Origin: Williamsia serinedens
GTDB lineage: Bacteria; Actinomycetota; Actinomycetes; Mycobacteriales; Mycobacteriaceae
DNA length: 64,000 nucleotides
Direction of reading: 5' to 3'
Assembly (NCBI RefSeq): GCF_024171725.1
Contig: NZ_JAMTCG010000003.1
Span: 558,001-622,000, forward strand
The translations under genes and the position numbers were made by a program. Positions within the stretch are counted from its first letter, which is position 1. Each line of letters begins with the position of its first letter. This document shows, in pieces, positions 17,094 through 19,371 of the stretch. Below the pieces are notes generated by a model, which was given only the letters and a program-made list of their open reading frames with translations, ran no database searches and was not told the origin of the DNA.

Positions 17094-18347
17094 TCAGCGG
17101 GGGTTGCCGACGGCCTTGCGCCAGGCGGTGAACGACCTCACCGGAGCACGCTTTGGATGGACCAACCAGGGCCAGGGGTGCACCTCGGCGGGGCGCACCT
17201 GCCCGGCGATGCGCTTGTACCCCGGCACCGGGGCCCAGGTGGACGCCAGCGACCGGCCGTCGAGTTCGTCGGCGACGACACCGCGACGCACCTCGACCTC
17301 ACGGCGCTGCGCAAGGTCACCGAGGCACTCCGCGAGGAACACCAACCGCTTGCCCGACAGGCGGAGTCGACGCAGCAGCGGCTCGTCGAAGACGAACACC
17401 GCGGGGCGCGATTCGTCCACCGCCAGAGCGGGATCCGCGTCGCCGAGGGACTCCGCGGTCAGCCACACGGCGTCGGCCTCACCAGTGTTCTCGGCAGAGT
17501 CCGGGCCCGACGGGATGTCCTCGGGGCCCAGGTAGGGGCCGTCGACGGGTGCGCCGTGGTCGTCCGACGGCCAGTCCTGGATGGGGCAGTTCGAGTTCAA
17601 CGAGCACTCACCGCACAGCTTCGGCGACCGCTTCTTCACCTGCCACCGGCTGAACCCATAGGGCTTACCCGACCCGGTGCCCACGGTCCACTGCCAGCCG
17701 AGGCGGTTCGCGGCGCGCGAGCCGTCGACCAGGTGCGCGAACATCTCGTCCTCGCCGTCGGGCCACGTCGCGCCGACGCGCACGGTCCACTGCGACGCCG
17801 CCCACATGCGTGTCTGGTTGACCAGCCAGCCGTTCTCGTGGAGTTCGTCGACGACGAGCTCCATGCACTTCATCTCGCGCGGCCACGGGTCTCCGCCGAA
17901 CGGGCGATCACCCGCGGGGAGGTCGCGGCGCGGCTGCTCGTAGCGCAGGGCCTGGCCGAGGTCCGTCCTGACGCGCGAGTACAGGTGCCGCGCGTACTCC
18001 TGCCACAGCAGCTCGTCGCGGTACTTGGTGCGGTCGCGGCCGGGCGCGTCGGACACCGCGTCCCACACCTCGGGCAGCGGTGTCAGGCCGTGACGGATGT
18101 AGGGCGACATGCGGCTGGCGCCGCGACGGGCCACGGGCAACACCTCGTTGCGACGCGCGGCGTAGCCGGTGATATCGAGCGCGCCGAAGGCGATGTCTGC
18201 TGCGGTCTGCCCGCCGGTGAACGCCCCGGCGGCGATGTCCGACGGTTCCTCGCGGGCGAGATCTCCGAGGTGTTCGGCGACCCACGCGACGGACTCGGCG
18301 TGGTCGCCGTCGGGGCTGGGCGGCGGTGGCGTCGGGAGGGCGGTCAC
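17094..18347 (-). CDS. photolyase/cryptochrome-like protein with permuted domains and predicted Fe-S site
   Basis: 417 residues. Residues ~60-240 match the helical FAD-binding domain of photolyases: SRMSPYIRHG, ELLWQEYARHLY, ENGWLVNQTRMWAASQW, and DGSRAANRLGWQWTVGTG. Cysteines in MKCMEL (~160), LCGEC (~244, 247) and SNCPIQDW (~253) match the four cluster ligands of FeS-type bacterial photolyases (PhrB-like). After a linker, residues ~292-400 resemble the light-harvesting alpha/beta domain normally found at the N-terminus: VWLTAESLGDADPALA, PAVFVFDEPLL, LSGKRLVFLAECLGDL, VEVRRG. The domain order therefore appears reversed relative to canonical photolyases. Likely flavoprotein for DNA photorepair or light sensing. 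Confidence 0.75.
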   Translation of the reverse strand: MTALPTPPPPSPDGDHAESVAWVAEHLGDLAREEPSDIAAGAFTGGQTAADIAFGALDITGYAARRNEVLPVARRGASRMSPYIRHGLTPLPEVWDAVSDAPGRDRTKYRDELLWQEYARHLYSRVRTDLGQALRYEQPRRDLPAGDRPFGGDPWPREMKCMELVVDELHENGWLVNQTRMWAASQWTVRVGATWPDGEDEMFAHLVDGSRAANRLGWQWTVGTGSGKPYGFSRWQVKKRSPKLCGECSLNSNCPIQDWPSDDHGAPVDGPYLGPEDIPSGPDSAENTGEADAVWLTAESLGDADPALAVDESRPAVFVFDEPLLRRLRLSGKRLVFLAECLGDLAQRREVEVRRGVVADELDGRSLASTWAPVPGYKRIAGQVRPAEVHPWPWLVHPKRAPVRSFTAWRKAVGNPR

Positions 18348-18366
18348 CCTCCCGACAACGCCGTCG

Positions 18367-19371
18367 TCAGCTCAAACGCTTCCCCGGGCTGCGGGTCAGG
18401 TCGGGGTCGGTGATGATCGCGTCGCCGAGCGCGGCGTCGATCCGCGACAGCACGTCGGCCTCCAGCGTCACCTCGGACGCCTTCACGTTCTCGGTGATCT
18501 GCTCGGGCCGCGATGCACCGACCAGCGCGGCGGACACGTTGTCGTTGGCGAGAACCCACGCGACGGCCAGCTGCGCCATCGTGATCCCGAGGTCGTCGGC
18601 GATGGGCTGCAGATCCTGCACGCGGGTGAGGACGTCGTCGGTGAGGTAGCGCTTGATCATCTCGTCGCCACCCTTCTCGTCGGTGGCGCGCGACCCGGCC
18701 GGCGGCGCCTCACCCGGCTTGTACTTGCCGGTCAGCACACCCTGGGCGATCGGCGACCAGACGATCTGACCGATCCCGAGCTCGCGCGACGTCGGGATCA
18801 CGCGCTCCTCGATCACCCGCCACAGCGCCGAGTACTGAGGCTGGTTGGAGACGATGGAGAAGCCGGCCTGCCGTGCGAGGGTCTGACCCGCGCGGAGCTG
18901 GTCGGCGGTCCACTCGGAGACACCGATGTAGAGCGCCTTGCCCGAGCGGACGACGTCGGCGAACGCGGCGATGGTCTCCTCGAGCGGCGTCTCGTGGTCG
19001 TAGCGGTGCGCCTGGTAGAGGTCGACGTAGTCGACGCCGAGTCGCCGCAGCGAGTTGTCGATGCCCTCGCGGATGTGCTTGCGCGACAACCCCGTGTCGT
19101 TCGGACCACGCTCCCCGACCGGGAAGTAGACCTTGGTGAAGATCTCGAGGCCCTCGCGGCGCTGCCCCTTCAGGGCCTTCCCGAGAACCTCCTCCGCGGC
19201 ACCGTTGGCGTAGACGTCGGCCGTGTCGAAGGTGGTGATGCCCGCATCGAGTGCGGCGTGCACACACTTCTCGGCGACGTCGTTCTCCACCTGGGAGCCG
19301 TGCGTGAGCCAGTTGCCGTAGGTGATCTCCGAGACCTTGAGACCACTGCTGCCGAGATACCGATACGCCAT
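18367..19371 (-). CDS. aldo/keto reductase (Kv-beta-type)
   Basis: 334 residues from the ATG giving MAYRYLGSSGLKVSE. A TIM-barrel AKR with the catalytic tetrad region DTADVYANG (Asp, Tyr), a Lys in EIFTKVYF and His in LYQAHRYD, plus NADPH-binding SPIAQGVLTGKYKPG and VGASRPEQITEN. The insertion after SPIAQGVLTGKY resembles the Kv-beta/YghZ group. It reduces carbonyl compounds with NADPH; the physiological substrate is unknown. Codirectional with the photolyase-like gene, with a 19-base gap. Confidence 0.85.
   Translation of the reverse strand: MAYRYLGSSGLKVSEITYGNWLTHGSQVENDVAEKCVHAALDAGITTFDTADVYANGAAEEVLGKALKGQRREGLEIFTKVYFPVGERGPNDTGLSRKHIREGIDNSLRRLGVDYVDLYQAHRYDHETPLEETIAAFADVVRSGKALYIGVSEWTADQLRAGQTLARQAGFSIVSNQPQYSALWRVIEERVIPTSRELGIGQIVWSPIAQGVLTGKYKPGEAPPAGSRATDEKGGDEMIKRYLTDDVLTRVQDLQPIADDLGITMAQLAVAWVLANDNVSAALVGASRPEQITENVKASEVTLEADVLSRIDAALGDAIITDPDLTRSPGKRLS

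Follow-up and report, generated by a model that had tools for sequence, protein, structure and literature searches.

What is encoded by a gene that reads like a photolyase with its two domains in the opposite order, and with the cysteines of an iron-sulfur enzyme as well? The question is raised by a 64,000-nucleotide stretch of the Williamsia serinedens genome (contig NZ_JAMTCG010000003.1, positions 558,001 to 622,000), here called the window and numbered from its first letter. On its (-) strand, at 17094..18347, lies an open reading frame (ORF) of 417 amino acids, opened by GTG and free of stop codons along its length, which a first-pass annotation had described as a photolyase-like protein of reversed domain order with predicted [4Fe-4S] ligands. 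The frame and the peptides quoted from it are present as described, and the gene is conserved, with 279 relatives found by our scan. We assign it as a reversed-order Fe-S-type short photolyase-like (SPL) gene and think it probable that the product is a light-driven DNA photolyase of the SPL kind, with the cyclobutane pyrimidine dimer (CPD) as its most likely lesion.

The photolyase domains occur in the opposite order

The N-terminal part of the protein is a helical FAD-binding photolyase domain (residues ~45-240; 17628..18215, (-) strand). Pfam places FAD_binding_7 (PF03441) at residues 167-227 (E 9.3e-9), and in phmmer and hmmsearch comparisons the helical domains of PDB photolyases (8 chains) align from residues 28-77 through 225-241. 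CPD photolyases lead the sequence matches of this half (1tez, 1owl, and 1iqr, then 4u63 and 1dnp), and the match to PhrB is far weaker (4dja, E 0.0037). The AlphaFold2 (AF2) model of the whole protein, built from 62 sequences (pLDDT 95.8, pTM 0.94), consists of helices up to residue 293, with no strand of three or more residues before that point, so that no alpha/beta domain precedes the FAD domain. Its top Foldseek match is the Thermus photolyase 1iqr (E 1.6e-7), with the best PhrB chain at 1.9e-4. An interdomain linker that is mostly unconserved and almost without secondary structure in the model (residues ~255-290; 17478..17585, (-)) leads into the C-terminal half, which is modeled as an alpha/beta domain of five strands with a helix at its end.

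Judged from profile comparison, this C-terminal domain (residues ~291-413; 17109..17477, (-)) is homologous to the N-terminal, or antenna, domain of photolyases. The opposite-order matching was first noticed as two matches within one open frame of a single genome (G164). For the comparison we used 22 conventional actinobacterial photolyases; a further locus, L097, was left out of the original 23 because no start motif was located in it. In all 22, a single family profile aligns with the two halves in the opposite order; its alpha/beta part is the weaker one, with a domain E below 0.05 in 14 of the 22, above 0.05 in 8, and above 1 in 3. A hidden Markov model (HMM) of the C-terminal domain alone has its best match at the N terminus in 22/22, with sequence E-values from 2.5e-7 to 0.013.

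Direct alignment of profiles with hhalign, where the E-values apply to a single pair and not to a database search, gave a probability (P) of 92.9% (E 3.8e-7) for the actinobacterial C-terminal domain against the photolyase N-domain, and 96.7% (E 4.2e-10) for that of four Deinococcus relatives; the actinobacterial and Deinococcus domains match each other at P 99.2%. Column shuffling did not approach these scores (best of 100, 25.3 versus a real score of 46.8 for the actinobacterial domain and 20.3 versus 64.1 for that of Deinococcus), and the control profiles stayed low, with P 0.2% and 6.9% for reversed profiles and 0.5-0.6% for USP profiles. Against the N-domain of the FeS-BCPs, the actinobacterial domain gave P 3.1% and the Deinococcus domain 47.2%, and because of the latter value the Deinococcus domain is not cleanly set apart from it.

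Folded on its own (AF2, 61 sequences), the C-terminal domain gave pLDDT 90.8 and pTM 0.83, and five of its six best PDB matches in Foldseek are class II photolyases; with a best E of 0.013 (TM 0.56) this structural support is suggestive only. A Pfam scan shows no PF00875 match on the protein, so the class I order, PF00875 and then the FAD domain, is not found. The first-pass description of a FAD domain ahead of a photolyase-like alpha/beta segment is thus borne out by the opposite-order matches (in 8 of the 22, the alpha/beta match is weak), by hhalign with its controls, and by the fold of the isolated domain.

The C-terminal segments of four alphaproteobacterial SPLs and one from Bacteroidota reached P 0.1-1.1% with the N-domain of photolyases or with the domain of the actinobacterial family; with the Deinococcus domain, the alphaproteobacterial alignment gave 3.3% and the Bacteroidota sequence 0.3%. 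For this reason we do not claim a permuted alpha/beta domain in all SPLs. The alphaproteobacterial segments (L144, L145, L148, and L089) are of similar length, and no likeness to the N-domain of photolyases could be detected in them.

A predicted iron-sulfur site at the end of the FAD domain

Of the 279 relatives the best 80 were kept, 52-93% identical and near full length except at contig ends; the alignment holds 79 sequences, namely 78 of these relatives and the query, with L022 and L034 left out as short. Four cysteines are invariant in 79/79. Cys161 (17865..17867, (-)), the predicted first ligand of a [4Fe-4S] cluster, lies 16 residues before N177. Cys245, Cys248, and Cys254 (17586..17615, (-)), the predicted second to fourth ligands, form a C-x2-C-x5-C(P) motif whose C-x2-C-x5-C pattern recurs in every aligned sequence. 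In 78 of the 79, the active-site Asn follows the first cysteine at a distance of 16 residues, the same distance that separates the first cysteine from the catalytic His in 14/14 FeS-BCPs. The first and second cysteines are 84 positions apart in 77 of 83 sequences, those of Deinococcus included, and 85 in 3; the other 3 were missed by the pattern. In the FeS-BCPs (n=14 after removal of one duplicate gene, with the motif anchored on the His), the arrangement is C-x2-C-x12-CP with the first cysteine 88-89 residues before the second, 14/14, and this agrees with the spacings of 86-89 and 12-15 given in the accessible text of PMC3204975.

The four Deinococcus proteins retain all four cysteines. The triplet is missing from the four alphaproteobacterial SPLs and the one from Bacteroidota, one of which retains the first cysteine. 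The first-pass suggestion that the four cysteines match FeS-type ligands fits the C161, C245, C248, and C254 positions, and their invariance in the FeS-BCP pattern supports a predicted [4Fe-4S] site. Its role is probably structural: in PhrB, mutants of the cluster ligands were insoluble or unexpressed, from which the authors infer a structural role (PMC4619345, as far as its text is available).

The lesion pocket and the flavin contacts

The motif N177-Q-T-R-M181 (17805..17819, (-)) places the CPD-type pair Asn/Met in the lesion pocket instead of the (6-4) pair His/Leu. N177 is present in all 79 sequences, as are E112, W115, W195, D208, N214, W218, and W220, and M181 is present in 76 of the 79. 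The counterparts of the pocket residues in E. coli photolyase we take to be E274, W277, N341, M345, W359, W382, and W384. All 14 FeS-BCPs have H..RLM here, with His and Leu at the positions of N177 and M181. In PhrB, where these residues are H366 and L370, both H366N and H366N/L370M are described as lacking (6-4) repair (PMC4619345). We regard the pocket as CPD-type because it has Asn/Met where the FeS-BCPs have His/Leu and because these PhrB mutants lose repair. Thirteen flavin contacts are listed for the PCC 6301 photolyase in the available text of PMC9426592. In an alignment read by eye, seven are identical in the Williamsia protein (Y62, S78, S81, N177, D208, A213, and N214), five differ (A77, M80, Y109, Q116, and S210), and position 346 is ambiguous.

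Occurrence in actinobacteria and in Deinococcus

The closest of the best 80 relatives are from Williamsia (93, 89, and 78% identity), and all 8 Williamsia genomes have a match, that of G004 being in two separate pieces. In an even draw across the phylum, 15 of 197 genomes carry a full-length match; the count is 2 of 140 for the phylum to which a relative titled Myxococcota belongs. One copy (G032:C52:24640-25810, L123) is split over two reading frames that meet near residue ~210, by an assembly error or because the copy is broken.

On a plasmid of Deinococcus sp. QL22 (L088:2372-3663), the FAD and alpha/beta halves are two ORFs with a 4-base overlap, the FAD ORF coming first, an arrangement that resembles Synechococcus phr4/phr5 in a different phylum. 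The second ORF is annotated only as a hypothetical protein and matches PF00875 with E 2.3e-4, under the curated cut-off. Three further Deinococcus plasmids have a single gene for both halves.

Phylogeny and the photolyases of the same genomes

In a tree of FAD domains (42 rows), the actinobacterial reversed-order proteins form one clade (100/99), and the FeS-BCPs stand apart from the SPL, class I, and DASH proteins (100/100) when the tree is left free. On that tree the Deinococcus, alphaproteobacterial, and Bacteroidota SPLs fall on separate branches, 2 changes being needed for those outside the actinobacterial clade; a single SPL clade is thus not demonstrated, and a constraint to one is not rejected by the approximately unbiased (AU) test (p 0.512). 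Two other homes for the protein were considered and rejected. FeS-BCP membership fails on the Asn that replaces the PhrB H366 histidine in 79/79 and on the lack of the N-terminal DPRP domain (PF04244), and class I membership fails on the reversed domain order.

Three photolyase-family genes were found in the host genome: a class I photolyase, an FeS-BCP, and the reversed-order gene. According to the accessible text of PMC9178010, S. elongatus carries the same trio. The class I gene lies on the same contig (C3) at ~623.3-624.7 kb, just beyond the end of the window and ~47 kb from the reversed-order gene; the FeS-BCP gene, on contig C6, is the one PF04244 match of the genome. Among the 197 drawn genomes, PF04244 occurs in 13 of the 15 that have a full-length relative, the host included, and in 15 of the 182 others (Fisher p 4.7e-11, a value that ignores shared ancestry). 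An FeS-BCP gene falls inside the fetched flank in at least 5 of the 80 loci, which is a lower bound because many flanks are short; a class I photolyase gene passes the same threshold in none. In two genomes the FeS-BCP and reversed-order genes adjoin each other on the same strand, and their order in one genome is the opposite of that in the other (G134:C25, ~30.6-33.4 kb, L143; G194:C3, ~435-438.5 kb, L142).

Neighboring gene and start region

The reversed-order gene of Williamsia is preceded by an aldo/keto reductase gene, whose stop ends at 18367 (photolyase start, 18347). This neighbor is kept in the loci L001 to L003; apart from these, just one of the 80, L048, has a match, and a distant one. 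The GTG codon and the ribosome-binding region lie within a GC-rich hairpin with a stem of 10-12 bp (18331-18356, (-)). Of the three Williamsia relatives examined, L001 and L002 keep the hairpin and L003 does not; it might serve as the terminator of the upstream gene or as a translation switch. A phage or viral origin of the gene was also considered but is not supported: none of 16 pattern matches in viral contigs encoded a relative, and 8 phage records matched only at 23-27% over 36% of the query, within the FAD domain.

Discussion

The proposed function starts from the identity and order of the two domains and from the conserved cysteines and pocket residues. The N-terminal helical domain would bind FAD, blue light would excite the FAD in its reduced form, and the excited cofactor would donate an electron to an ultraviolet (UV) lesion flipped into the pocket; this would most likely be a CPD, because residues of the class I CPD enzymes are kept in the pocket. 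The FAD domain would end in the four-cysteine [4Fe-4S] site, probably as a structural element, and the C-terminal alpha/beta domain, as the counterpart of the conventional N-terminal domain, would probably pack beside it, with or without an antenna pigment.

Several observations weigh against a light-driven CPD photolyase. In all 79 actinobacterial members, Q116, Q178, and S210 replace the Arg, Arg, and Asp of class I. The third tryptophan of the classical Trp triad has, by eye, no clear counterpart, the isolated C-terminal model has no Foldseek match in the PDB below E 1e-3, and a tree that unites the actinobacterial and Deinococcus Fe-S SPLs with the FeS-BCPs is not rejected (p 0.335). Other points come from the reverse-order photolyases with four cysteines described in 2022 from marine Synechococcus and Cyanobium (Phr4+Phr5/Phr6), as far as the text of PMC9426592 is available. 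An insertion mutant of phr4 in strain RS9916 had 20-30 times lower survival of UV-C and normal survival of UV-B, which the authors take as a sign of a (6-4) role. In E. coli without phr and SOS, phr4/phr5 of RS9916, by architecture the relative studied in most depth, raised UV-C survival 10-20 times, with light and dark not significantly different, and gave nothing after UV-B. Of all the results, this light-independent protection speaks most strongly against a simple light-driven photolyase; split genes and a foreign host may leave room for other readings of it.

These data bear on two rival functions. The protein might be a (6-4) photolyase, as proposed for the Synechococcus forms because the FeS-BCP (6-4) enzymes carry the same cysteines; the shared four-cysteine pattern and the RS9916 mutant, with its 20-30 times lower UV-C survival and unaffected UV-B survival, speak for this. 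We nonetheless hold it quite improbable, given that the essential His of PhrB is Asn177 in 79/79 and H366N is inactive in PhrB (PMC4619345), that a separate FeS-BCP is present in the host and in 13/15 genomes with a full-length relative, and that the FAD domain lies outside the FeS-BCP clade on the free tree (100/100). It also seems unlikely to us that the protein performs no light-driven repair, whether it protects DNA or binds lesions without the need for light, is a cryptochrome-like sensor, or is a photolyase that has become inactive. The invariance of E112, W115, N177, N214, and W220 (79/79) and of M181 (76/79) argues for a working photolyase, as do the co-occurrence with FeS-BCP genes and the adjacency to them in some genomes. 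Such a role without light-driven repair would nevertheless suit the equal UV-C protection of E. coli in light and dark by phr4/phr5 (PMC9426592), the invariant changes at Q116, Q178, and S210, the two other photolyases in the same genome, and the upstream neighbor in Williamsia, an aldo/keto reductase gene and not a repair gene. The E. coli test was made with a split pair, however, and in a foreign host there may be a failure of frameshifting, of the pairing of subunits, or of the Fe-S cluster.

A third alternative concerns the C-terminal domain, which would be an unrelated HUP/Rossmann-like domain that merely resembles the photolyase N-domain. PF00875 is below threshold on the protein, and in the Foldseek ranking of the isolated domain the photolyases are followed by other HUP folds, among them phosphopantetheine adenylyltransferase and USP-like proteins. 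Set against this are P 92.9-96.7% to photolyase N-domains versus 0.5-0.6% to USP, with no shuffle near the score, the domain-only HMM with its best match at the N terminus in 22/22 conventional photolyases, and photolyases as five of the six best PDB matches, and we give the alternative very little credence. More speculative is a scenario that we consider doubtful, in which the actinobacterial and Deinococcus proteins represent a deep Fe-S photolyase lineage whose alpha/beta domain joined after the FAD domain independently of the conventional photolyases. In that case a two-subunit ancestor would have left its traces in the split QL22 ORFs and in the unrejected grouping with FeS-BCPs (p 0.335), and Q116/Q178/S210 would mark another substrate or chemistry, possibly a light-independent protection like that of phr4/phr5.

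The unusual class proposed in the first-pass annotation is not a new one, since the same architecture has already been published for cyanobacteria: the reversed-order Fe-S design is known from PMC9426592, in its available text. Nor does its proposal of a circular permutation stand in full. The reversed order holds; the event is not established over a separate fusion in the other order, given the two-ORF form in Deinococcus, and the term describes a domain order and not a demonstrated event. A literature search of titles and abstract openings returned nothing on an actinobacterial reversed-order family, and one for circular permutation and photolyase returned nothing relevant at that level. What we add is an actinobacterial clade with an invariant Q/Q/S set, single-gene and split forms in Deinococcus, and the co-occurrence with FeS-BCPs.

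Reversed-order Fe-S photolyases, described from cyanobacteria, are thereby also placed in an actinobacterial family and in Deinococcus. This suggests that some "short" photolyases, at least, may carry the alpha/beta domain at the other end rather than lack it, a view of relevance to the claim that all photolyases and cryptochromes descend from SPLs. Cultured genera such as Williamsia and Nocardioides, among others, offer a single-gene source for studying exchanged domains, the need for light, and an Fe-S cluster combined with CPD or (6-4) repair.

Comparison with known photolyases

The SPL class, the likely home of the Williamsia protein, is known to us through papers that cite Xu et al. 2021 (PMC9649867, PMC9178010, and PMC9498864, each in its accessible text), where it is given as a class of CPD photolyases, proposed to be ancestral and to have an Fe-S cluster. 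Both it and the Williamsia protein lack an alpha/beta domain before the FAD domain; the latter differs in carrying such a domain at its C terminus. SPLs without the Fe-S cysteines, the Phr7 type, are described as CPD photolyases acting on single-stranded DNA (PMC9426592).

With the FeS-BCPs (PhrB and CryB), the protein has in common the four cysteines, the C-x2-C-xn-CP motif, and the distance of the first cysteine to the active-site motif. The FeS-BCPs differ in their conventional domain order, in a His/Leu pocket in place of Asn/Met, in a gap of 12 instead of 5 between the third and fourth cysteines, and in forming a separate clade (100/100). Class I CPD photolyases have the nearest FAD domain by sequence and fold, most of the lesion-pocket residues, and the same two domains, but in the opposite order and without the Fe-S cysteines, and their Arg/Arg/Asp are Q116/Q178/S210 in the Williamsia family.

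A close likeness, drawn from the published description in PMC9426592 as far as available, is to Phr4+Phr5/Phr6. There, too, the FAD domain comes first and the photolyase alpha/beta domain second, four Fe-S cysteines are present, and the genes reside in genomes with other photolyases. The cyanobacterial authors predict a (6-4) role, whereas the pocket of the Williamsia family argues for CPD. Every marine Synechococcus and some Cyanobium have phr4 and phr5 as separate genes, and a single phr6 occurs in two Cyanobium. The cysteines of RS9916 Phr4 (C169, C254, C257, and C263) are spaced 85-3-6, compared to 84-3-6 in the Williamsia protein.
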